Origin: Arcobacter lacus
GTDB taxonomy: Bacteria; Campylobacterota; Campylobacteria; Campylobacterales; Arcobacteraceae
Assembly (NCBI RefSeq): GCF_003063295.1
Contig: NZ_MUXF01000003.1
Coordinates: forward strand, 1-64,000
Direction: 5' to 3'
Length of the DNA stretch: 64,000 nucleotides
Below, in pieces: positions 51,727-64,000 of this stretch; the stretch's first letter is position 1, and the number at the start of each line of letters is the position of its first letter. The translations under genes were made by a program, and so were the position numbers. The notes below the pieces were generated by a model, which did no database searches, was not told where the DNA came from, and saw nothing but the letters and a program-made list of their open reading frames with translations.

Positions 51727-51921
51727 ATGATTAGAACTATTGATTTTAGAATTCCTGAATTATTATCTATGAAAAAGTATCCTAATGAGATTTTTTATAT
51801 TGGGAATTGTGAACTTCTAAAAAAAAGAAAAATATCTATAATAGGAACAAGAAGACCCTCTTCTTATACAAAAGAGTTTACGCATAAACTAGCTTCTAAT
51901 GTCATTTATAATAATAAATAG
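51727..51921 (+). pseudogene. dprA: dprA interrupted after about 58 codons
   Basis: The 64-aa frame starts MIRTIDFRIPELLSMKKYP and runs to SIIGTRRPSSYTKEFTHKLASN, the start of the DprA/Smf Rossmann domain. It then leaves the family and stops at 51921. DprA is normally 250-380 aa and loads RecA onto incoming DNA in natural transformation. The break falls at or just after 51899, where sequence with the hallmarks of a transposon end begins (TGTC plus repeats). The remaining 3' part of dprA is expected beyond the window. Confidence 0.85.
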
Positions 51922-51945
51922 AACTCAACAATAATAATTAGAACT
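51908..51945. repeat. Tandem TnsB-type binding repeats at the transposon end
   Basis: ATAATAATAAATAGAACT (51908-51925) and ACAATAATAATTAGAACT (51928-51945) match at 16 of 18 positions with a 20-base period. Tn7-, Tn5053- and Mu-like elements carry such repeats as transposase sites in their ends. Confidence 0.55.
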
Positions 51946-52060
51946 ATTAGGCTTCAAACTTCTTTTCAGTTTATTGCAACCAAATTAATTGTTTATTTTT
52001 TTCCATGTACCTTTCTAAATAATCTTTCCTAATATAAATAAATGTTTAGTGTTCTAAAAA

Positions 52061-52213
52061 CTAGAGATTGTGGGATGGTTGATTTGAAAAACAAGATGAT
52101 ATCTTCATTTGTCTATTCAAATCTTTATCCCAAGTAACTTTATGAGGTAAAAACTTAAATAGCTGTAGTGCAACCTTGTTTTTTTCTTTCCAATGATTTG
52201 TTAGAACCTCCAT
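52061..52213 (-). CDS. 50-aa ORF directly after the DUF4365 gene
   Basis: Its ATG follows the DUF4365 stop with no gap (TAAATG). The product reads MEVLTNHWKEKNKVALQLF at the start, with Trp- and Lys-rich helices, then DKDLNRQMKISSCFSNQPSHNL. No family is recognised. It could be a coupled small partner or the remnant of a longer gene cut by DNA loss near the transposon end. From here to the repeats (51946-52060) nothing else coding is seen. Confidence 0.35.
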   Translation of the reverse strand: MEVLTNHWKEKNKVALQLFKFLPHKVTWDKDLNRQMKISSCFSNQPSHNL

Positions 52214-53110
52214 TTAAATAAATGAAGGAACACTTCCATCATCATCAATATTTATTACAAGATTGTATAGCTGTAAATCCATAATATGCCAATACTCAGA
52301 TTCAATATTGGTTATATGATCTTTAATTTTTAGTGAAACTGGAGAAAGTAGCTCCCCTAATTTTGTCACTATTTCATCGATATAATATTCATGAATATAA
52401 TAAGCATCGCCAAAAGATTTCTGGCTTTCTGAAAAATAATCACTAATTGACTTTAATTTCCACTCAATTTGAAAATGCAGACATAAAAAGCGTATATTTT
52501 CATAGAACACTTTAAGATATAGAACTCTATCAATATCTACTCCCATAAAACAGTCTCTACCGGTATTCTCTTTAATGAAATCTGTATAACGTGCGTAATT
52601 TGATAAAAATGTATTTATATTTATATCTAAGTTTTTCCAATGTTTATCAGAAAAATAAGAAAATATAAAATTTTCTAAAGTTGAAACTTCAAGCTTATCT
52701 TTCTTGTAAATCTTATAAGAAAATGTATCCTGTTTAATATAGGAATAGAAGTTTTTTCTAACTGACTCTTTAACTGACGAATAAAAAACCTCTTCAGTTT
52801 CTAGGTCAACAAGACATATAAAGACTGGAGTGGGAAACTTCATCCAGTAATTCGTTGTTGATATGTTTATTCCTGAAAAAGTAAAATAGTCATCTTTCGT
52901 CCACTTTATTTTTTGTTTACCTTTTAGTTGAACTGAAATAAGTTCACCTGTAACTTGATTTTGATTGTTTACTAACTCGATATAACAATCAATTCCATAG
53001 TCTCGTTCACTAACTTCTCTAATAATCCAATGGTTGGGTATATTTCTAGAGAATATTTTATAAGAACTAGTCTCAGTTACATGTTTTGCATCTCTAGTTG
53101 GTAACTCCAT
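52214..53110 (-). CDS. DUF4365-domain protein, possible PD-(D/E)xK nuclease
   Basis: A 298-aa protein. The N-terminal half fits DUF4365: PTRDAKHVTETSSYKIF, then ERDYGIDCYIELV and GELISVQLKGKQK. The order Asp41 ... Gln61-Leu-Lys63 is the (D)...(E/Q)xK pattern of PD-(D/E)xK-like nucleases. The family is often found in defence islands; its biochemical activity is not firmly known. The last 150 residues have no recognised domain. The frame extends to an ATG at 53128, but AAAGGAA precedes the ATG at 53110. It shares its promoter sequence with the 673-aa gene. Confidence 0.7.
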   Translation of the reverse strand: MELPTRDAKHVTETSSYKIFSRNIPNHWIIREVSERDYGIDCYIELVNNQNQVTGELISVQLKGKQKIKWTKDDYFTFSGINISTTNYWMKFPTPVFICLVDLETEEVFYSSVKESVRKNFYSYIKQDTFSYKIYKKDKLEVSTLENFIFSYFSDKHWKNLDININTFLSNYARYTDFIKENTGRDCFMGVDIDRVLYLKVFYENIRFLCLHFQIEWKLKSISDYFSESQKSFGDAYYIHEYYIDEIVTKLGELLSPVSLKIKDHITNIESEYWHIMDLQLYNLVINIDDDGSVPSFI

Positions 53111-53133
53111 TTTATTATTCCTTTCCATGTTCT

Positions 53134-53176
53134 AACTATTTATTAGATAGGTATTATATATAAAACAGCCTAAAAA
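53134..53176 (-). promoter_or_regulatory. Promoter cassette copy A (before the DUF4365 gene)
   Basis: Minus strand: TTTTTAGGCT, three variable bases, TTATATATAAT (a -10 box), then TAATAAATAGTT. It matches copy B at 55588-55630 in 36 of 43 positions, without gaps. Confidence 0.6.
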
Positions 53177-53514
53177 TCGGGATACGATACACAAAATCTT
53201 TATTAATAGGATTTTTAGCTAAACTCATAAACATATCTATTAATTTTTGTTTTTTACCTTCTCTTGCATTTTGTAAAGCATTTTGGTAATCAAATATTTT
53301 CTATATTTCCAAAGTTGATTTTTCTGCCAAAGGTACACACTTGCCATAACCAGTACAGGATACTTTTTAGCCCATTTATTTGATTATATTTCTTGATAAC
53401 CGATATTCAATGTACCTTTAAATTCATTTTAATAATTGACCTCTCCTCCATTTAATCGTTCTTGTTCACATATTTATCAATTATTCCATTTATAGTATTT
53501 TTATTGCGTGCCAT
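53154..53514 (-). pseudogene. Decayed coding remnant
   Basis: The 414-base gap has no intact gene, but the minus strand shows pieces of protein-like sequence in different frames: MARNKNTINGIIDKYVN from the ATG at 53514, then ERLNGGEVNY, then KWAKKYPVLVMASVYLWQ, and finally a 48-codon open piece (53300-53154) containing DYQNALQNAREGKKQKLIDM. Stops and frame changes separate them. A transposase origin is possible from the WAKKYP-type sequence but unproven. The last piece runs into promoter copy A. Confidence 0.3.
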
Positions 53515-53542
53515 AATATTATCTTTTTAATATAACGTTTGT

Positions 53543-55564
53543 TTACCTATTTAGTGCTATATTTTGTTGTATATTTTGTACATCTATTTCTAATTGAGAT
53601 AATTTGTTAACATTTAATTCCAATATTTTATATTCTCTTTGAATGTATTTTTCCCTTTTGTTAGATAAATGATTAAGAATATCAAATTTTCTTTCATAAA
53701 GTATAGTGTATAGAAGAGACGCAACAATTGGAAATGCACCAAATATCCATGCCCATTGCTCCATAATATTCCACTCAAAGTTATAAATAAAGATAAAAAA
53801 GCATACATAATATCCGATAATTAAACTACCCCAAATAGTTTTATACCTATCAATTTGTTTACTAGAGTTTTCATCTGCAATTTTTTTTAATTTTTTTAAT
53901 GCTTCTAGTTCACTATTTTTACTTTCTAGTAACTCTTTTTTTTGTTCTTCTGTTAATTCTCTTATTGACTTAATATCATTTTTTAGTTTTGCATTTTCTT
54001 CTTCACTTTTAACAGCTTTATTCTTAAATTTGTCTTTTTCATATTTATATTTCTCAATATCTTTAATACTTAATGTATCTAAAATATCTGACAAACTCTC
54101 TTGTGATATTTCTTCAGGTTGTTTAACTTCAGATTTTAAATTAATAATTGTATCAATAATTTCGTCTTTATCTATTTTGCCATTTTGTACTAGTTGTTGT
54201 AATTCAGAATATTTTTTATGTACATTATTATTAATATTGTTTGATAATACTATTTGTGCTTTTGTAATTACGTCAAATATTTTTGGAAAATTAGTATTAC
54301 CAAATCCTTTATTTAGCTTTAACCAAAATTTGTTTATTAAAAAATCCAAATGCGTAACTAAAGGTACTTCTCCTTGTGTTTTGAGATATTGATTCCATGC
54401 AATTTTAAAAATTTTTGAATTTCCACTAAGTAAAATATACCCAATATTGTAAAAACTATTGTTACATCTTTCTGCTCTTAATATATTAATAGAATTTAAT
54501 TTATTTAAAGAATTACTTATTTCATATTCTTCATAGGGTGTATTTTTTTCTAAATCTTGTAATAAATCTTGACTTATTAGGTTGTATTTATAAGTATTAT
54601 CTGTTATGTAGTTTTCTGTCGTATCAATATCAATATTATAAGTTTCTAATAATTTAAAAAAGTTAGTTTTTTTTGAAATAATATCACTACCTTTAGAACA
54701 TCCTTCAATAATGCTATTCATTGCTGTTTTTGAAGGATCGATTTTGGTTGGTTTATCTAAAAGGTATGCAGCTTTTTTAAAATATCCATTAATCTCATCT
54801 TCAGTTGTTTTAAAATATTTAAAAAATATTTTTCTATTGCTTGAATTTATTTCTTTTACAAGTTTATAAAAATCTTCAAATAAACTTTTATACAGTTCTC
54901 CATTATAACCTGCAAAATGAAATAATATTTCAGTGTCTAAATAAATTACTAAATAATCAACTAGTTCTTTTCTTTTTTGTGTGATTTCGCCATACCTCAC
55001 TCCTGAATATAAAATCACACCCTCTCTGATAATATTTAATTGTTTTTTAAATTCTAAATTATTTTGATTTGATATTATAAAACTACTAATATCTTCATAA
55101 AATTTATTTTCAAAGCCATTCTCATTTAATAAAAATGAGCTAAAGCTTTGTGAAATCTCATCCTTATCATTTTGTATTAGTGTTTTATGATTCTTCCCTT
55201 CTATATATGAGTATAAATTTGCAATTATGTGTTCATTGTTTTCAATAATTTTTTCTTGTTTATTATCCACAATTAGATTTTCACTACTAGCATCATAGCT
55301 TATACTATAGTAACCTTCTGACTTTTCTGCTCTTAATCTTTTTAAAGCTGTTCTAATTATTGATTCTGGAATTTCAAAATCAAAATCCTCTTTCAAATTT
55401 AAATATATATCTTGTGCTGTAAATCTCAATAACTTTTTTGTTTTAATTGAACTTTTTATAAATTCAATAATAATATCATAATTATCTTTTTTAGAATCAT
55501 ATAATTCTTTATATACTGCATAAGAAGCAAGATTTTTTGATATTGATAGTTCTGTTTTATTCAT
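53543..55564 (-). CDS. 673-aa membrane-anchored PIN-like protein with N-terminal winged helix
   Basis: Not assigned to a named family. Visible order: winged-helix-like segment (about 30-90, LRFTAQDIYLNLK ... SIIRTALKRLR); a PIN-like nuclease fold (about 203-425) with YLDTEILFHFAGYNG (Asp210), TTEDEING (Glu255/Glu257), CSKGSDII (Asp294) and LLSGNSKIF (Asn382); a coiled coil rich in Lys/Glu (about 500-570); two TM helices (about 577-597 and 602-622); and a short helical tail. The acidic residues fit a metal-dependent nuclease. Membrane anchoring suggests an abortive-infection or sensing role, which is inference. Single gene with promoter copy B. Confidence 0.6.
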   Translation of the reverse strand: MNKTELSISKNLASYAVYKELYDSKKDNYDIIIEFIKSSIKTKKLLRFTAQDIYLNLKEDFDFEIPESIIRTALKRLRAEKSEGYYSISYDASSENLIVDNKQEKIIENNEHIIANLYSYIEGKNHKTLIQNDKDEISQSFSSFLLNENGFENKFYEDISSFIISNQNNLEFKKQLNIIREGVILYSGVRYGEITQKRKELVDYLVIYLDTEILFHFAGYNGELYKSLFEDFYKLVKEINSSNRKIFFKYFKTTEDEINGYFKKAAYLLDKPTKIDPSKTAMNSIIEGCSKGSDIISKKTNFFKLLETYNIDIDTTENYITDNTYKYNLISQDLLQDLEKNTPYEEYEISNSLNKLNSINILRAERCNNSFYNIGYILLSGNSKIFKIAWNQYLKTQGEVPLVTHLDFLINKFWLKLNKGFGNTNFPKIFDVITKAQIVLSNNINNNVHKKYSELQQLVQNGKIDKDEIIDTIINLKSEVKQPEEISQESLSDILDTLSIKDIEKYKYEKDKFKNKAVKSEEENAKLKNDIKSIRELTEEQKKELLESKNSELEALKKLKKIADENSSKQIDRYKTIWGSLIIGYYVCFFIFIYNFEWNIMEQWAWIFGAFPIVASLLYTILYERKFDILNHLSNKREKYIQREYKILELNVNKLSQLEIDVQNIQQNIALNR

Positions 55565-55587
55565 TTATTACCTTATTTTTTATATAC

Positions 55588-55630
55588 AACTATTTATTAA
55601 ATATACATTATATATAAGTTAGCCTAAAAA
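55588..55630 (-). promoter_or_regulatory. Promoter cassette copy B (before the 673-aa gene)
   Basis: Same layout as copy A, with -10 TATATAAT and the downstream TAATAAATAGTT. The gene start lies 24 bases past the conserved block and has AAGG in front (aataaggtaataaATG). Confidence 0.6.
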
Positions 55631-56002
55631 AATAAATAAATAATATATAAAATGTCTATATTGAAATATTAGCAAAACACTCTAACATAATGTAAATATA
55701 AAACTTTTAAAAATATTTTTTCAACCAATTTTGATTTTTTACTATAATTTTTATGTATATATTAAGTGATTACTGTATATTATCTATGTATGTATATTAA
55801 AGCAATATCGGGATAAACCTGTTGTTACATATATTAAAATACTATGTATATAAAAATTGATACAAAGATGAGTTATAAACACAAGTTTTATAAAATCTAA
55901 TTTTTGGAGCATATCCGAAAAGTAAGGTTTTTAAATTACATAATTCAACGTGCTGTGGTTTAAACAATATAATTTAATATATTATGTTTACTAAAATACC
56001 TA

Positions 56003-56142
56003 ATGACATGACTCTTTTGTTTTCTTTTAAAATTGAAACTAAATTTATAATCTTTTGGAATTCATCAAAAGTTTTTGTAATAAATTAAATTAATTAAAAT
56101 GTACAACAACATGCAAAATCAGTTTTATCAGAGTCATGTCAT
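56003..56142. repeat. Perfect 13-bp inverted repeat with 114-base spacer
   Basis: ATGACATGACTCT (56003-56015) returns in reverse complement as AGAGTCATGTCAT (56130-56142). The inner sequence holds a smaller hairpin (CTTTTG ... CAAAAG). It could bound a small mobile unit or a structured RNA; nothing identifies it further. Confidence 0.5.
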
Positions 56143-56259
56143 CTCCAATAAAAAATACTACTTTTTAATTGGTTATTATACGAATTTTAGCTTTGTTTTT
56201 CAAAAATTAAAGAAAAGTCATTTTACAAACATAATATTAGAAATAAACAATCAAAATGC

Positions 56260-56265
56260 TATAAT
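56260..56265 (+). promoter_or_regulatory. Predicted extended -10 box for the Excalibur gene
   Basis: TGCTATAAT, 20 bases before the start codon, with AAAAGGA as ribosome site between. The short leader would be only about 10-15 bases. Confidence 0.5.
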
Positions 56266-56285
56266 CAATTGAAAAGGATTATTCT

Positions 56286-56507
56286 ATGCATAAAATTCTA
56301 ATAGTAATTGCGCTTACATTATCTCTTTTCTCAGCAGAAACAAAAAAGCAAAAAACAGAAGTAAAGCAAGAATTCAAGTGTGAAGGTAAAAAAACGTGTA
56401 AAGAGATGAAAAGTTGTAAAGAAGCAATGTTTTATCTAAGAGAGTGTGGAGTATCAAGACTAGATAGAGATAAAGACGGTATTCCTTGTGAGACTATCTG
56501 TAGATAA
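56286..56507 (+). CDS. Small secreted Excalibur-domain protein
   Basis: A 73-aa exported protein. Residues 1-16 are a signal peptide (ending LSLFSAE). The mature part has the Excalibur calcium-binding pattern: CKEMKSCKEAMFYLRECG then DRDKDGIPCETIC, where the Asp residues would hold Ca2+ and the cysteines pair. The domain is often fused to secreted thermonucleases; here it is separate but next to a periplasmic nuclease gene, in convergent orientation. Confidence 0.82.
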   Translation: MHKILIVIALTLSLFSAETKKQKTEVKQEFKCEGKKTCKEMKSCKEAMFYLRECGVSRLDRDKDGIPCETICR

Positions 56508-56510
56508 GAG

Positions 56511-56624
56511 TTATTTCTTATCTACTTTATTTTTTTCTTTTATTTTTGATTCATAAAAAGCTAACATTATCACAACAATAGCAACAACAATAAAGCCTAT
56601 TATTTCATTTTGAAAATCTTCCAC
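56511..56624 (-). CDS. 37-aa single-TM peptide after the nuclease gene
   Basis: A GTG-started ORF 12 bases after the endA-like stop, with AGGA in front. The peptide has a TM helix (IIGFIVVAIVVIMLAFY) and a Lys-rich tail (ESKIKEKNKVDKK). Layout suggests a small inner-membrane protein in an operon with the nuclease. Unknown family; too short to be certain. Confidence 0.45.
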   Translation of the reverse strand: MEDFQNEIIGFIVVAIVVIMLAFYESKIKEKNKVDKK

Positions 56625-56636
56625 TATTCCTAACCC

Positions 56637-57293
56637 TTATTTAATATTCTCAATTCTTTTATTCTTCTCAATTTCCCATTCATCTATTGGGTCTTGCTTA
56701 TCCCAAGATTCCATTAGTTTTCTTTCTTGGTCAGATAAATTAATATTATATGTTTTACTCATATAAAGATATGCTCTTGCTATATCACCTTTTATTTCAT
56801 CTCTTACATAAGCTCTATTAACATCAAAATCAACTTCAAATTTACACTCACCATACATTCCAACTTTTGGTTTATCTGCTCCATATCTAAAATTACTTCT
56901 ATCAGCATTTAATTCACCAATAGCAGGAACAAGGTTATGCATATCAGCTTCCATTTTATTAAATATAGGGTCTTTAGAACAAGCTTTTCTTCCACCATCT
57001 TTCCAACAAGCTAAATGTCTTCCAAAGTTTTCAGCAGGCATTATATGTTCCCACTCTATTCTATTGGCTCTCTCATTCTCTTTACCTTTTTTTGTTAGTT
57101 CATTTCTTGGAACATAACCACAACTATTTCTATCAATCATATTATCTTTATCTAGAGGATTATATTTACAACCACAATAAAAAGTTGTTTGATGGTCTTT
57201 ATATATTTCTTTTAACAGTTTTTTTGATTCACTAAATGATTCTGCGAATATTGTTGTTAATAAAAGAGTTATTAGTAATAGTATTTTTTTCAA
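56637..57293 (-). CDS. Periplasmic endonuclease I (EndA/NucM family)
   Basis: A 218-aa exported nuclease. A signal peptide (about 1-18) precedes the EndA fold: CGCKYNPLD, SCGYVPR, RIEWEHIMPAENFGR (the His of the beta-beta-alpha-metal motif), RKACSKDPIFNKMEADMHNLVPAIGE and NADRSNFRYG. Cysteines match the disulfides of the family. It cuts DNA non-specifically outside the cytoplasm. In some Campylobacter, prophage-borne relatives block natural transformation; whether this one does is inference, supported by its place in an element that breaks dprA. Confidence 0.9.
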   Translation of the reverse strand: MKKILLLITLLLTTIFAESFSESKKLLKEIYKDHQTTFYCGCKYNPLDKDNMIDRNSCGYVPRNELTKKGKENERANRIEWEHIMPAENFGRHLACWKDGGRKACSKDPIFNKMEADMHNLVPAIGELNADRSNFRYGADKPKVGMYGECKFEVDFDVNRAYVRDEIKGDIARAYLYMSKTYNINLSDQERKLMESWDKQDPIDEWEIEKNKRIENIK

Positions 57294-57549
57294 ATGTTTT
57301 TCCTTATATATTTAAAGTTTTGAATTATAGTTGATTTTATTTCAAATTGTTATATTTTTTAATTTTTTCTAAAACTACTATATAATTATAAAGTTAGGTA
57401 TTTTAGAATAATTTTTAATATTCAAAATATAAAATCTTTTTAGAAAAAACTGCTCTCTAGGATTTACTAAATTATCATTTCCAACCACACAATCCCAAAA
57501 AGAGAATAGTAAAATATTTTTTTGATAGAAATAAAAAAGGAAATTTATA

Positions 57550-58245
57550 ATGAAACAAATATATATAATAAGTGATGTTCATGGTTGTTATAAAACCTTA
57601 TTAGCTCTAATAGACCAATTTCCAAATAAACAAAACTCTAAAATAGTTTTTGTTGGTGATTTAGTTGATAAAGGTAAAAATACTCATGATGTTATTGAAT
57701 TTGTTAAAAACAATAATTATGATTGTGTATTAGGTAATCATGATGAAATGATGATACTTTATCATTCTCACCTTGAAAATGATATATACCATGAAGATTT
57801 GAGATATTGGCTTTTTAAATGTGGTGGAGAAGATACTTTAAATTCATATTCTTCAAAAGAAAAGTTTTATGAACATATTGAATATTTAAAAAGTTTACCT
57901 CATTATATAGAATATGAAGATTATAAAACAGAAGACAATAGATATTTAGTTGTTTCCCATTCAACTGTTGGAAAAGTATGGAATTTAAGAAATAGTATAA
58001 ATGTAGATGACATTAAAGAGTTTAATCATTTTGTTAAATGGAGTAGATGGAAAAATTATGATAATGAAGAAATATTTAATGTGTATGGTCATACAATTTT
58101 TCAAGAGCCATTATTAAATAATTATTCTTGTGGGATTGATTTAGGTTGCTTCTATAAAAATAAAGAGAAATTACCAAATCCTAGACTTTGTGCTTTAGAA
58201 TTTCCCTCTATGAAGATTTATACTCAAGAAAGTTTGGAAGATTAG
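57550..58245 (+). CDS. PP1-like metallophosphoesterase
   Basis: A 231-aa phosphoesterase of the PrpA/lambda phosphatase type. Metal ligands: ISDVHGCYKT, VFVGDLVDKGKNTHDVI and VLGNHDEMM, then HST and VYGHTIFQEPLLNN. It may remove phosphate from proteins or hydrolyse dinucleotide polyphosphates. It is 3 bases before the next gene, so both form a unit. The 256 bases before it hold no gene. Confidence 0.85.
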   Translation: MKQIYIISDVHGCYKTLLALIDQFPNKQNSKIVFVGDLVDKGKNTHDVIEFVKNNNYDCVLGNHDEMMILYHSHLENDIYHEDLRYWLFKCGGEDTLNSYSSKEKFYEHIEYLKSLPHYIEYEDYKTEDNRYLVVSHSTVGKVWNLRNSINVDDIKEFNHFVKWSRWKNYDNEEIFNVYGHTIFQEPLLNNYSCGIDLGCFYKNKEKLPNPRLCALEFPSMKIYTQESLED

Positions 58246-58248
58246 AAA

Positions 58249-59958
58249 ATGAAGAATGATAAACCTATACTTGAATTTTTTAATGATAATCCTAATACTT
58301 CATATGAAATCATTTTTATATTAGACATTGATTACTCTGGCTATCCTTACTATTACAAAGTTTTAGTTAAAGATATTAAAACAAATTTTTATACGACAAT
58401 TTTAATTCCACCTGAATTATTAAGATATAGATATAAGATAGGTAATGTTTATAAAGGCAATAAAACTATTGGTAAAAATACTTTAATTAAATCAGCAACT
58501 TTTACTATTGATACTTCAAATGAATTACAAATAAAAACTTTAAAAGAAGTAATTAGTGAGTCTGATTTAAATTTAGTTACTTATGATTATCTAAAACATT
58601 TTTATCTAAAACAATATTGTTATTCATTTGATTTTGATAAGTTCGAATTAATAATACCAACCTATACTATCGCTAATAGATTTTATTTTCTTTCTTCTTC
58701 AATGAAAAAAGCAATATTTGTCAATTCTCTTTCATCTCTATGTGAAGATAAAAAATTTTATAAAGATGGTAATACAGTATTTATTTCAGTACGTCCTACA
58801 GCTGCAAAAAGAGATTATCCATTTATATGTAGATTTTTAGAGAATAAAGATGCTAAAGATAATTTAAACTATTTTATAAACCAAAAAAGTATTCAAGATA
58901 AAGTTAAACATTTTGGTCAGATAAAAGCTAATTTCCCAACAAAAGAAAAGTTTGAAATTGATACTTCATATATAATCTTAAATAAGCATCCTAAACCAAA
59001 AATTTTGGTACTTGATATCTTTAATGATTCTTCATCCTTTAATTTTAATAAAATTCATGTAGAGAAATTTACTTCAAAATCTAGTAAATCTTCTATTTCA
59101 ATCGATATTCCTGTTAATAAAAAAAGATTTAAAAAGAAAATATCTAATAAAATTGAAAAAACTATAAAAACTGGAGTGCCCTCTTCTAGTTACACTATAA
59201 ACTTAGATGGTGACATAGCTCAAAAAGATAGAAATACTCAGAATATTGAAATTAAGATTGAAGATATTTATAAAATTTCAGAAGCTGAAATGGCAACTGA
59301 ATTTACAGATGACATCGTTAATCCAACTTTTGAAAATTCAGAATCTAGTGGCTCTAATGAATTAGTTCAATCAGTTTATTCATTTTATGGAGAAAGTGAA
59401 AATAATGGAATTAATATATTTAACGTAAATGATTTTTATATACTTTTTAATCTTCTTTCACAAGAAACTGGAGTTGAAGCTATTAGTATATCCGATTTAA
59501 TTACTATAACTCCAAAAGAAAATAGTAAGAATAATATTTCTACAAAATATTATCTTTCATCAAAAAAGAATAGAAATTACTTGTATGGAGATTTTTTATA
59601 CAATAATAAATATATCTTTATTATTGAAATTGAACTAGATAAGTCATGGCAAGGAATATCAACATGGTTTTTTATTTATCAAAATGAGGAAGATTTTCAA
59701 CTAACTGAAACTATTGTGCAAGATATAATAAGTTATTATATAGGTGAATGTAAATCCTATGATGACTTAAGAGAATATGTTTGTATGGAATATGATTTAG
59801 TTATGTATAAAAAAGCTCATGTAAAAAAAATTGAAGAAGAATATCTATTATATCATTGGGTTGATGATGTTCTTTATAATTTAGAAAAAATAGATTACAA
59901 AAGTGTGATAGAAAAAATCAGAGAAGAATATAATAAGAAAAATAACAATAAGAAATAG
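58249..59958 (+). CDS. 569-aa transposon-borne protein, possibly TnsE-like
   Basis: Not confidently recognised. No signal peptide or TM helix. The first 220 residues are beta-rich; 270-330 are basic (NKKRFKKKISNKIEKTIKTG); the C-terminal third has RNYLYGDFLYNNKYIFIIEIELDKSWQGIS, which reminds me of the C-terminal fold of TnsE, the Tn7 protein (about 538 aa) that guides insertion to replicating DNA. Size, basic patch and the place beside tniQ fit that idea; orientation (convergent with tniQ) does not prove it. It could also be independent cargo. Confidence 0.35.
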   Translation: MKNDKPILEFFNDNPNTSYEIIFILDIDYSGYPYYYKVLVKDIKTNFYTTILIPPELLRYRYKIGNVYKGNKTIGKNTLIKSATFTIDTSNELQIKTLKEVISESDLNLVTYDYLKHFYLKQYCYSFDFDKFELIIPTYTIANRFYFLSSSMKKAIFVNSLSSLCEDKKFYKDGNTVFISVRPTAAKRDYPFICRFLENKDAKDNLNYFINQKSIQDKVKHFGQIKANFPTKEKFEIDTSYIILNKHPKPKILVLDIFNDSSSFNFNKIHVEKFTSKSSKSSISIDIPVNKKRFKKKISNKIEKTIKTGVPSSSYTINLDGDIAQKDRNTQNIEIKIEDIYKISEAEMATEFTDDIVNPTFENSESSGSNELVQSVYSFYGESENNGINIFNVNDFYILFNLLSQETGVEAISISDLITITPKENSKNNISTKYYLSSKKNRNYLYGDFLYNNKYIFIIEIELDKSWQGISTWFFIYQNEEDFQLTETIVQDIISYYIGECKSYDDLREYVCMEYDLVMYKKAHVKKIEEEYLLYHWVDDVLYNLEKIDYKSVIEKIREEYNKKNNNKK

Positions 59959-59963
59959 TATAT

Positions 59964-61112
59964 TTACTCCATAGTAAATTGTTTCAATAAATTTCTTAAT
60001 TGATTATAGGAACTAAAAAAATTATAACCTAAAAGTTTTGTCAAATTTGCTTGATTGACTAATATATCGTTTTTCTTTAAATATTTTATTGCATTTAATA
60101 TTTCTTTTTCACTTACCATTCTTGCAAGATAAACTATTTTAGGAGATATTTCATTAACTGATTTCTCATACCAATATGGAACTACCTTAATATCTCTAAT
60201 CATTTCAAAATTTGATAATTTATTTTGAGTTATAAATAATTCAAATTTTTTCGGAAATTTTTCAAATATTGATAGAATTATGGTAAATAATATATATTGT
60301 TCTTTTATTGATATTTGAGAAAAAGAACTTTTGCTAGTTAAAAAATTCTTTCTAGAAATTTTTTTTAATATTTTATTTTCAATACCATTAATTATGGTTT
60401 TTTTTGATGATAATACTAACTTACTTATATGTGAGATAATATCAAAAAATACAAATGAATATATATAATAATCTTCTAATTGAATGTAACCTTTTTTCAA
60501 AATATTTATTAAATTACAATTCAATTCATACTTAGATTTATTTTTTATATACTTAACATCACTATTTGCCAATTTAAAACCACAATTACAACAATACTCA
60601 TAGGATAATTCATTATTAAACATTTTAAGTACTGAAATTTGACTTTGACATTTAGGACATTTATCTTGTAAATAACATTTATGTTTTTTACAAAATGTTG
60701 AAAATACAACTCTATGTTCTTTTTTAAAATAAGGTATTTTATCTTCCTTCAAACATTTAGGACAAAACCTATAATTTGTTAGAAATTTATTATTACCATT
60801 ACTAATTATCTCTTCTTGTAAAAATCCATCATACGATTTCATTGTCATATTTCTTAATTTAGAAAAACTAAATGATGTTTTTATCGATAATATTTGAAGA
60901 ATTTCATCAGATACAGTAGCATCAATATTTTGGCTTAGAGTATAAATAAATTTGTCTTTTGGAAAATGTAAATGCCAAAATGTTCTTGGATGGGTTTTAT
61001 GAGCATATGCACATCTAGCAAACCATGAAGAAAAAATCTCACCTTTAAATGGTTCAGGAATAATTAAAAATCTTGATTTTTCAATCAATGGATTTTTAAT
61101 TTTCTTTATCAT
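59964..61112 (-). CDS. tniQ: TniQ/TnsD-family target-selection protein
   Basis: A 382-aa protein. It begins LIIPEPFKGEIFSSWFARCAYAHK, the TniQ start motif. Zinc-ribbon cysteines are RFCPKCLKED, FCKKHKC, DKCPKCQSQI and YCCNCGFKL. The C-terminal 130 residues are helical with a helix-turn-helix look. In Tn5053/Tn7 systems this protein recognises the target and recruits the TniB/TnsC ATPase. Its ATG overlaps the tniB stop (ATGA). The target may be dprA itself. Confidence 0.88.
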   Translation of the reverse strand: MIKKIKNPLIEKSRFLIIPEPFKGEIFSSWFARCAYAHKTHPRTFWHLHFPKDKFIYTLSQNIDATVSDEILQILSIKTSFSFSKLRNMTMKSYDGFLQEEIISNGNNKFLTNYRFCPKCLKEDKIPYFKKEHRVVFSTFCKKHKCYLQDKCPKCQSQISVLKMFNNELSYEYCCNCGFKLANSDVKYIKNKSKYELNCNLINILKKGYIQLEDYYIYSFVFFDIISHISKLVLSSKKTIINGIENKILKKISRKNFLTSKSSFSQISIKEQYILFTIILSIFEKFPKKFELFITQNKLSNFEMIRDIKVVPYWYEKSVNEISPKIVYLARMVSEKEILNAIKYLKKNDILVNQANLTKLLGYNFFSSYNQLRNLLKQFTME

Positions 61113-62047
61113 ATATCTTTTAAACTCTCATTTTTATGAACATTTTTTAAACTATTGAAATCACAATTTCTAAGTTCATCTATTGTTATTTGTTCACTTC
61201 CTGTTCTTATTGCATATATAGCAGATTCTTTTAATAAATTTATTATTTCACCTATATACCCTTCTGACATTTCAAGTATAAATTGTGCTGTATTTTTATT
61301 TAAAATATTCGTCTTTTTTTTCAAAGGAAGCATACTTAAAATTGTTGCTAACAAAGTAATAAAATCTTTATTCATTTTCCATTTTGTTAAATACATTGGT
61401 CTAAATCTACTGCTTATTTGACTATTAGTACTAATAGCTCTTAAAGCATCTTTTGTACCCGATAAAACAATTGGTATCTTTAATTGATTACTTAAATTTT
61501 TAATTGTATCCATCATTGCATTTCGTTTAAGTGGAGAAGCACCTAAAATATTGTGTATCTCATCTATAATCAACATTTCAACATTCAAACTATGAAAATA
61601 ATGTTCAACCAATTTCTTTTTAGCTGCCGTTGTATCTCTTTCTTTATATTCAGCATTAAGTGTACTTAAAATTTCAGAATATAATCTTCCTTCTGTTACC
61701 TCTGTTGGTGCAATTATATAGATTACTGGCATTCCTGTTGCATGATATTCACTAAAATATTTTTCTCTTTGTTCTTCTATAGTACAAAGATTCAAATCAT
61801 AATTTTTATGTAATGTTTTAAACCTTTCAAGTAATGATGTTTTGCCATTATTACTTGAACCAACTAATAAAATACTTGTAACCCGTAGTTTACCTTTCTC
61901 ATATCTAATTAAATCTTCCATTTTTTGTAAAATATCAGAAGCTGTAGGATAATCTATCCAATATGTTTTTGAAATATATTCTAATCTTTCTTCATCAGTT
62001 TTTAAAAGGATTTCTTTTGTTTCAGCTGTTAATTGAATGTCATCCAA
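61109..62047 (-). CDS. tniB: TniB/TnsC-type AAA+ ATPase
   Basis: A 312-aa ATPase that passes the target signal to the transposase. Walker A is GSSNNGKT (63-70), Walker B is VEMLIIDEIHNIL, and the sensor/arginine region has VLSGTKDALRA and SSRFRPMYL. Length and start (MDDIQLTAETKEILLKTDEER) are typical of TniB. Between tniA (12 bases) and tniQ (overlap) in one operon. Confidence 0.93.
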   Translation of the reverse strand: MDDIQLTAETKEILLKTDEERLEYISKTYWIDYPTASDILQKMEDLIRYEKGKLRVTSILLVGSSNNGKTSLLERFKTLHKNYDLNLCTIEEQREKYFSEYHATGMPVIYIIAPTEVTEGRLYSEILSTLNAEYKERDTTAAKKKLVEHYFHSLNVEMLIIDEIHNILGASPLKRNAMMDTIKNLSNQLKIPIVLSGTKDALRAISTNSQISSRFRPMYLTKWKMNKDFITLLATILSMLPLKKKTNILNKNTAQFILEMSEGYIGEIINLLKESAIYAIRTGSEQITIDELRNCDFNSLKNVHKNESLKDI

Positions 62048-62059
62048 ATTTAATCCTTT

Positions 62060-63901
62060 TTATTTCTTATGAATATCAAATAATTTAATATCTGAAAATA
62101 AATCATCTAAACTGTTATCTTTTTGAATAGCTTTATCTTCAACTTTTTTAGATTCTTTTACATCTTTCATTTTAAGAGATTTTGTTTTACGCAATTTTGC
62201 TTTTCTTGTATTTGATACAGCTTCATCTTCAATTTTTTCTAAAATATCATGTGCTTCGAAAATATCATTTTCATTATAATTTTCTATATTTTTTTCTTTT
62301 AAATATCTCTTTGCACTAATCAAGTCCCATAGTGTCATTTCAGGGGCTTCTATTTTTTTATAATAAATTTCAAAGTATTCTTCAAGTTCAGGGTCAAAGA
62401 AATATATCTTTCTAATATTTAATGGGTCTCTTTTTATTTTAAATTTTAGCTTATTTCCTTTTTCATCTTTTCTATTAATCCAATGACGCAACACGTCTCC
62501 ATAATAATTAAGTCCATCAAGTGTGATGCCATCTCTTTGAATAGTTCTATAAATTGCAGGTAATAACGTAATTCTTATATTTTCTTTATCTTCAAGAATA
62601 TCAGGTAGCTGTCCAACACCAATATTTTCATCATCTCCAAAAATTCCTATTTCATATTGTTTTGCAGGAGTATTATTAATACCTAAATGAAAATTATTAT
62701 GATATTGTATAAAATATTGTGTTAACCATCGAATTAGTTCTTTTAAACTAAATGATGCTTTTTTTACAGAATCATATCCATCTCTATCTTCTATATTTGA
62801 ACCAGTTGTTCCTGGTAAATTATGCACTTCATTCTTTAGTGTTGAGAAAAAACGTTCAACATGAGAACCAAATTGAGGCTCACCAACAGGTCTTTTAACC
62901 AATGTTATATTTAATTCGGAGCAAACTCTTTCCATATCTAATCCAACTAGCTCAGCACCATTATCTACATGAATTATTCTAGGTATTCCATAAATACTCC
63001 ATTCTCCTTTAACATTTTGTTCTTTTAAAAATTCATTCTTAGGCAAAAAAGTATGGTATAGACATTGATTTACACTAAAATAGCCTGTAGAATGCAATGA
63101 TAAGTAAAATCCAGCAATCATTCTTGAATAAACATCAATTGCTAAAGTAAGAGTTGGTCTTCCTATAGGTCTTCTATATTTTTCGTCAACTAATATTATG
63201 TCTAATGGAGTATGGTCAATTTGAATTACATCCATAGGACATAAACCATCAGGAAATTGTCCTTCAAAATTACCAAATTCTCTATTTGCTCTACGAGAAC
63301 TATGCCTTCTTTTTAGAGCCAATTTTGGGTCAATTTTTTTAATTCTATTTCTTATTGTATTTTCATGAGGAAATTCTACATTTTCAGCTTGACATTGTTG
63401 TTTTATTTTTCTAAATATTTTATTTAAACTATATCTTTGTTTATTTAAATATAACTCTTCAATTATATTTACAATAATTAACTCAACATTAGGGTCTAAT
63501 CTACTTCCTTTTTTACCCCTATTTTTTGTATTTGGTACCAATGAACTTTTTTGTTCATTTTCTTCATATTGTTTAATCCATCTATAAACTGTGGTATATG
63601 CAATATTATGTTCTTTTGCTAAATCTATAACTTCTTGCTTTGTTCTACTTACAAAAAGTAAATCTTTTATAATTTCATATCGTTTTTCTGCTATTGCCCA
63701 TTCTTCATCGGTAATATTATCAAGTAAAATACTATTTGTATTTTCTTCTAATGATAGTTCTGAAATAAGTACTTCAAGTTTAGTATCTGGATTTTTTATA
63801 GATTGAATTCGCACAGAATAAAAATCAATTATTTTTATAATACTATATTGTTCATTTTGGTAAAAAACTTTTTCATTTCTTTTAATTCTTAATTTACTCA
63901 T
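62060..63901 (-). CDS. tniA: TniA/TnsB-type DDE transposase
   Basis: A 613-aa Mu/TnsB-family integrase-fold transposase. A helix-turn-helix region (about 85-115, TKQEVIDLAKEHNIAYTTVYRWIKQYE) precedes the catalytic core, with Asp229 (IQIDHT), Asp313 (HVDNGAE) and Glu349 (FGSHVERFF); Asp313 and Glu349 are 35 residues apart, the DD(35)E spacing. A C-terminal tail rich in Lys/Glu likely contacts TniB. No tnsA-like endonuclease gene is next to it, which suggests replicative cut like Tn5053 unless tnsA lies upstream of the window edge. First gene of tniA-tniB-tniQ. Confidence 0.94.
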   Translation of the reverse strand: MSKLRIKRNEKVFYQNEQYSIIKIIDFYSVRIQSIKNPDTKLEVLISELSLEENTNSILLDNITDEEWAIAEKRYEIIKDLLFVSRTKQEVIDLAKEHNIAYTTVYRWIKQYEENEQKSSLVPNTKNRGKKGSRLDPNVELIIVNIIEELYLNKQRYSLNKIFRKIKQQCQAENVEFPHENTIRNRIKKIDPKLALKRRHSSRRANREFGNFEGQFPDGLCPMDVIQIDHTPLDIILVDEKYRRPIGRPTLTLAIDVYSRMIAGFYLSLHSTGYFSVNQCLYHTFLPKNEFLKEQNVKGEWSIYGIPRIIHVDNGAELVGLDMERVCSELNITLVKRPVGEPQFGSHVERFFSTLKNEVHNLPGTTGSNIEDRDGYDSVKKASFSLKELIRWLTQYFIQYHNNFHLGINNTPAKQYEIGIFGDDENIGVGQLPDILEDKENIRITLLPAIYRTIQRDGITLDGLNYYGDVLRHWINRKDEKGNKLKFKIKRDPLNIRKIYFFDPELEEYFEIYYKKIEAPEMTLWDLISAKRYLKEKNIENYNENDIFEAHDILEKIEDEAVSNTRKAKLRKTKSLKMKDVKESKKVEDKAIQKDNSLDDLFSDIKLFDIHKK

Positions 63902-64000
63902 TTTAATCCTTTGGGATTAATTATTGAAGCCATTGTAATCTTTTTTGTAAAATCAATACACTCAGTATTATTAAAAACTAAATTCCAAATATATGGTATA
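63902..64000. other. Region upstream of tniA up to the window edge
   Basis: Ninety-nine bases with AT-rich sequence and the small hairpin AATCC-tttg-GGATT (63905-63918). No inverted match to the left-end repeats was found, so the second transposon end lies beyond the window, or further genes follow first. Confidence 0.4.

Follow-up and report, generated by a model that had tools for sequence, protein, structure and literature searches.

The window analysed here is a 64,000-nucleotide stretch of the Arcobacter lacus genome (positions 1 to 64,000 of contig NZ_MUXF01000003.1, or G000:C3:1-64000 in our numbering, which continues past the window along the 118-kb contig C3). Toward its right-hand side, the competence gene dprA is split by a 16,218-bp transposon. 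The gene starts at 51727 on the forward strand and, as had been proposed from the letters of the window, loses the match to its family at 51899, after the residues ...KLAS, with TGTC beginning at 51900. Statements on whole genomes in this study rest on family searches. A PF02481 search of the entire genome returned two pieces only, the 5′ part (51727-51899, 57 of 258 codons, with the match at C3:51748-51909) and a 3′ part at C3:68106-68534; no second dprA was found by this search, and comEC is present. The original prediction had placed the remainder of dprA beyond position 64,000, preceded by a duplicated TCTAA and a reverse-oriented TGT end, and all of these were found. The reverse-oriented end beside the 3′ part reads TGTTATCTCCAATGATAAATCGAACTC; the right end of the element, ...GATAACA, closes at C3:68117, 4.1 kb past the window, and dprA resumes at C3:68118 with the second copy of TCTAA (C3:68118-68122; first copy at 51895-51899). 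Both junctions were thus read, and they delimit an element spanning C3:51900-68117 with TGT...ACA ends and a 5-bp duplication. Its termini are TGTCATTTATAATAATAAATAGAACT on the left and, on the other strand, TGTTATCTCCAATGATAAATCGAACT on the right. The empty site was likewise sought and found: relatives keep an intact dprA with the same neighbour genes, and the joined flanks of the insertion align to the intact region of one of them (G003, L067) over 831 nt without a gap, at 95.3% identity.

The left end (TGTCATTTATAATAATAAATAGAACT..., 51900-51945, +) carries the two repeats noticed earlier, AATAATAAATAGAACT at 51910 and AATAATAATTAGAACT at 51930. These are direct repeats 20 bp apart and probable TnsB sites; the same layout is seen at the left ends of relatives, and the right end holds one clear copy and degenerate copies. 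The homologues of tniA, tniB and tniQ are indeed oriented toward the 51900 end. They correspond to tnsB (62060-63901, −), a DDE transposase assigned by PF09299, rve and the TnsB tree; tnsC (61109-62047, −), a TniB-type AAA+ regulator (PF05621, E 7.4e-55); and tniQ (59964-61112, −), a probable target selector of 382 aa (PF06527, E 7.2e-21) that resembles TniQ and TnsD structures by both profile and fold. The 3′ portion of tnsA (−; PF08722/PF08721) lies in the window at 63898-64000, and the gene extends to C3:64542. On the opposite strand is a divergent tnsE (58249-59958, +), recognised by its homologues and predicted fold. The TnsE_C match is weak in the window copy (E 0.01) and was obtained in 6 of 14 homologues (best 1.8e-6). 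Searching the TnsE profile against the sequences of solved structures returned nothing, but the predicted fold matched the TnsE C-terminal domain structures 5d17/9d5l with a probability of 1.00.

By its gene content the element is Tn7-like rather than Tn5053-like, because it encodes TnsA and a homologue of TnsE and shows no resolvase. The earlier description of a Tn5053/Tn7-like element in dprA therefore holds for the superfamily and the insertion, and its Tn5053 half is dropped. The Tn7-like features comprise the TnsA, TnsB and TnsC set, a TniQ/TnsD-family protein, TnsE, TGT...ACA ends with repeated putative TnsB sites and a 5-bp duplication (in the window element and in relatives read at both junctions), and an insertion that is specific in site and orientation, as described below. 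Three narrower assignments were tried and rejected. Tn5053/Tn402 does not fit an element with tnsA and tnsE and no tniR resolvase among its genes; a CRISPR-associated transposon does not fit one with no Cas gene among them; and for the Tn6022 group, no TnsF gene lies by tniQ or elsewhere in the window element, none is common to the clade members, and the target is dprA, not comM.

Recurrent insertion into dprA

A TnsB search among 104 genomes of the same family revealed relatives in 31, and in five of these (G000, G007, G085, G013 and G035, which hold the five closest TnsBs) dprA is split by such an element. Wider searches added G581, G453, G684, G678 and G639, interrupted at codon 57, and G340, G331 and G360, interrupted at codon 90. 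The total is 13 dprA insertions at two positions, eight at codon 57 (the former group with G000, G007 and G085) and five at codon 90 (the latter with G035 and G013). In an even sample of the bacterial class, 9 of 397 genomes have a dprA insertion of this kind. The 5-bp duplications match wherever both junctions were read. At codon 57 they always consist of the three bases of that codon and two of codon 58 (TCTAA, TCCAA, TATGG, CGGGC, AAAAA in both G453 and G678, AAGAA and TTTGC); at codon 90 they read GTTGT, ATACT, GTTTC and GTGGC, and in G013 the duplication is TGATT, shifted by 2 bp. All 13 elements have one orientation, with the tnsA end toward the 3′ part of dprA, and random insertion would be expected to yield 0.004 dprA hits in 13 events. 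Because the host dprA sequences group with those of host relatives (the split gene of G000 with G003, and that of G007a with G008/G009), the insertions represent separate events. On the sequences compared, one TnsB clade in this bacterial class has inserted into dprA repeatedly, and the window element is no isolated case.

Further cases were noted alongside this set. The left terminus of the G331 element (L133) reads TCTC instead of TGTC, and this element is perhaps no longer mobile. A split dprA in G023 was rejected as an insertion, since the fragments overlap at contig ends and thus indicate an assembly break. In G063 (C8:84855-107588; L088/L089), another kind of element, 22.8 kb long, interrupts dprA at about codon 133; it encodes a tyrosine recombinase (432 aa), a 193-aa protein and a 950-aa GmtZ/TnsF-like protein, with a CBASS-like set and a NucA-type nuclease as cargo. 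This element looks like the gamma-mobile-trio/Tsy type.

Target choice

In the TnsB tree, all dprA-inserted members and a branch inserted at argJ form one clade with a support of 100/99 (argJ, mnmG and flhF are names assigned by eye from sequence). The codon-90 members do not fall together in this tree, and the codon-57 element G007a groups with G035 and G013 (100/99). The TniQ tree, on the other hand, unites the five codon-90 members in one clade (100/99) and leaves G007a outside. Furthermore, the TniQ of G007a ends in ...CNFHSSYNQL, which is similar to the NFFSSYNxL of G000, G085 and G639 and unlike the codon-90 TniQs. Insertion position tracks TniQ better than TnsB, with G007a as one natural swap. 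The C-terminal motif alone is not the rule, because the TniQs of G453 and G684 deviate from it yet insert at codon 57. As the position follows the TniQ tree and no gene common to the members was found beyond tnsABC, tniQ and tnsE, TniQ is the best candidate for the selector and probably chooses the insertion site.

The dprA sequence around the two sites is consistent with such a role. Over 29 intact dprA genes, a 33-nt segment 25-58 nt beyond the codon-57 site, encoding the SGAAMGVD motif, lies at the 95th percentile of dprA conservation, and segments 0-43 nt beyond the codon-90 site, at the NGLDIRYP motif, lie at the 96th-99th percentile. The conserved flank is the tnsA side at both sites, and the opposite flanks are ordinary. 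In Tn7, TnsD binds on the tnsA side, and conservation on this side would be expected if TniQ binds there as well.

In the argJ branch (G403b, G700, G711 and G797), the insertion is at the argJ stop codon and the stop is kept. G403 has a second copy in flhF, identical over the 15.5 kb compared and with the duplication CATAC, which indicates that the family moves recently and off site. The argJ copy in G403:C1 is directly followed by another left end, in tandem. The A. lacus genome itself contains a second Tn7-like element (G000:C4:25000-44000; L006:4846-18193), which adjoins the 3′ end of mnmG and has a tnsE-like gene at the end away from tnsA; the mnmG 3′ end recurs as a target in G079, G012 and G032.

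Cargo of the clade and of the window element

Eight of the 13 inserted genomes (G000, G007, G013, G035, G085, G331, G360 and G639) gave no intact DprA-family match, and all eight have comEC. Full-length dprA is present in the other five. Four of these lie on the element, directly after tnsE in G340 and G581 and somewhat further in for G453 and G684; the G678 gene, which shares 91% identity with the dprA of G453, is found on another contig and is presumed to belong to the element. In a DprA tree that included three of the cargo proteins, these diverge from the broken host gene, do not cluster together and are no recent copies of it. Other cargo of the clade is largely defence, including Gabija (G007), restriction-modification (G453), SspFGH with DzbA (G581), and DndC-like with RdrA-like proteins (G684).

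No dprA is carried by the window element, whose defence genes ietS (C3:64558-66729, −; PADLOC 5e-39) and ietA (C3:66752-67858, −; PADLOC 4e-87) follow tnsA. In most relatives tnsE stands at the very left end, whereas in the window element further cargo separates it from that end. This cargo begins with a restriction-nuclease-like DUF4365 protein (52214-53128, −; PF14280, E 2.9e-18; partial PADLOC match, 8e-14) and a 673-aa protein of unknown family (53543-55564, −), for which Pfam, PADLOC and NCBIfam gave no convincing match. A direct repeat of 43 nt, with 84% identity between its copies, flanks the latter gene (53134-53176 and 55588-55630) and is perhaps the trace of a nested insertion. There follow a small exported Excalibur-domain protein (56286-56507, +; PF05901, E 3.3e-12), an EndA-type endonuclease I with a signal-peptide-like N-terminus (56637-57293, −; PF04231, E 1.2e-32; NCBIfam deoxyribonuclease I, 2.7e-65, below cut-off) and, beside tnsE, a calcineurin-like phosphoesterase (57550-58245, +; PF00149, E 4.3e-13). 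EndA-type nuclease genes 53-83% identical to the window copy also occur in or near other Tn7-like elements that are not in dprA (L045:10279-10956, L047:7771-8424 and L055:12071-12736). Mobile elements are known to insert into the competence genes comYC, comEC, comM and comFA, and the DNases of the Campylobacter elements CJIE1, 2 and 4 lower transformation 100- to 1000-fold (PMC4774983). By analogy, the window element would unite gene breakage and a DNase against transformation.

Proposed mechanism and alternatives

With a probability of about 80%, we regard the element as a Tn7-like transposon of 16.2 kb, from a clade that targets dprA, which is inserted in codon 57 of that gene and acts as follows. 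TniQ would recognise a stretch of dprA coding sequence, and TnsC would recruit the cut-and-paste transposase TnsA+TnsB, so that the distance and orientation of the insertion are fixed and 5 bp are duplicated. By way of TnsE the element would probably have a second route, like that of Tn7, which leads to replication forks or conjugative plasmids. Insertion removes DprA, which protects incoming single-stranded DNA and loads RecA, and the host should lose natural transformation. Such a loss would shield the element from deletion when imported empty-site DNA recombines with the chromosome; the EndA-type nuclease, if analogous to the Campylobacter DNases, would add to this effect, and IetAS may repay the host through phage defence. 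In relatives with a full-length divergent dprA, the cargo gene would probably restore DprA.

Several points weigh against this proposal. In the argJ branch it is the left end that faces the gene, and argJ is unbroken; in the argJ and mnmG elements alike, the conserved gene faces the end opposite to that in the dprA case. The side on which TniQ binds is therefore not settled. In addition, an unseen partner of TniQ is possible, as this TniQ is about the size of the Tn6022 TniQ (369 aa), which needs TnsF. Transformability of the host is itself presumed. Finally, lasting loss of transformation would not be the whole advantage, because elements with an intact dprA cancel the knock-out.

The alternative that survives best is that dprA is merely a convenient, conserved and dispensable landing site, the loss of transformation being a by-product without benefit to the element. 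We give it considerable weight without favouring it. Both positions lie next to the stretches of dprA that are most conserved, which would suit an attachment site of broad host range, and the gene is not essential, eight inserted genomes being without it; five others have a spare dprA, as if its loss were harmful or at least unwanted. However, most Tn7-like targets stay intact, and so does argJ, used by one branch of this clade. Two unrelated element types, the Tn7-like clade and the recombinase element of G063, use dprA in this family, and comM is hit by both Tn6022 and Tsy (PMC10293859), so that competence genes recur as targets. It is improbable that the selector is TnsE or an unrecognised partner instead of TniQ. 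Tn6022, with a TniQ of similar size, requires TnsF to find comM (PMC10293859), and TnsE is conserved in every member for which the left end is covered; yet the members share no gene beyond the five named, target position follows the TniQ tree and not the TnsB tree, Tn7 TnsE directs to replication forks and not to a fixed sequence, and the sole off-site copy found, that in flhF, fits a TnsE-like route. Several of the related genomes exist as drafts or were assembled from metagenomes, but a chimeric contig is hardly conceivable as the source of the split dprA, given that both junctions of the window element, with their exact 5-bp duplication, lie in one 118-kb contig and the same junction codon is met in other genera and families, including complete or near-complete chromosomes (G007 C1, G013 and G035).

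Building on the proposed TniQ-directed insertion, we tentatively raise a further idea, itself rather doubtful, that this transposon lineage takes over host DprA: it would break the chromosomal gene at a fixed codon via a TniQ that reads conserved dprA DNA, a subset would supply its own DprA, and transformation would either stop or need the element. If true, the element would be difficult to cure after such a takeover, and rival elements in search of dprA would find no target left.

The suggestion that elements at this site were undescribed agrees with the open-access papers searched, in which we found no report of an element in dprA and nothing on Tn7-like elements with Arcobacter. The word dprA does not occur in the main text of two wide Tn7 surveys, whose supplements may hold an attachment-site table naming it. 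Thus dprA is a probable, though not certain, newly recognised Tn7-like target, and it would join the short list of competence genes sought by site-specific transposons. The 13 cases at two fixed positions, together with the natural swap of TniQ, open target choice to direct testing. Members with their own dprA are unforeseen by the simple idea that mobile elements gain from shutting off transformation, and through them it could be tested why bacteria retain transformation or give it up. Targeted insertion could likewise make use of compact TniQs that differ in their fixed sites.

Comparison with known systems

Closest in build are the Tn6022/AbaR-type elements in comM of Acinetobacter. They share with the window element TnsABC with a TniQ of about 370 aa and a divergent tnsE that lies near the left end on the opposite strand, and they too insert into conserved coding DNA within a gene for transformation (PMC10293859). 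The dprA clade differs in hitting dprA instead of comM, in lacking TnsF and in having hosts of another bacterial class; moreover, some of its members bring a replacement for the broken gene, and the window tnsE lies inward of other cargo. DprA acts more centrally than ComM, so that without it transformation should be blocked to a greater extent. With Tn7 (tnsABCDE, attTn7 at glmS), the element has in common the TnsA+TnsB cut-and-paste core, the 5-bp duplication, a fixed site and orientation, and TnsE; it differs in its short TniQ in place of TnsD, in a highly divergent tnsE apart from the operon, and in breaking its target gene. Tn5053/Tn402 (tniABQR) resembles it in the TniA, TniB and TniQ homologues, TGT ends and 5-bp duplication, whereas the window element has TnsA and TnsE, no TniR resolvase seen, and a chromosomal coding gene as target. 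The Tsy elements in comM (tyrosine recombinase, helix-turn-helix protein and TnsF) follow the same strategy of a selfish element breaking a competence gene. The window element uses a different recombination chemistry, and it is the G063 element in dprA that looks Tsy-like.

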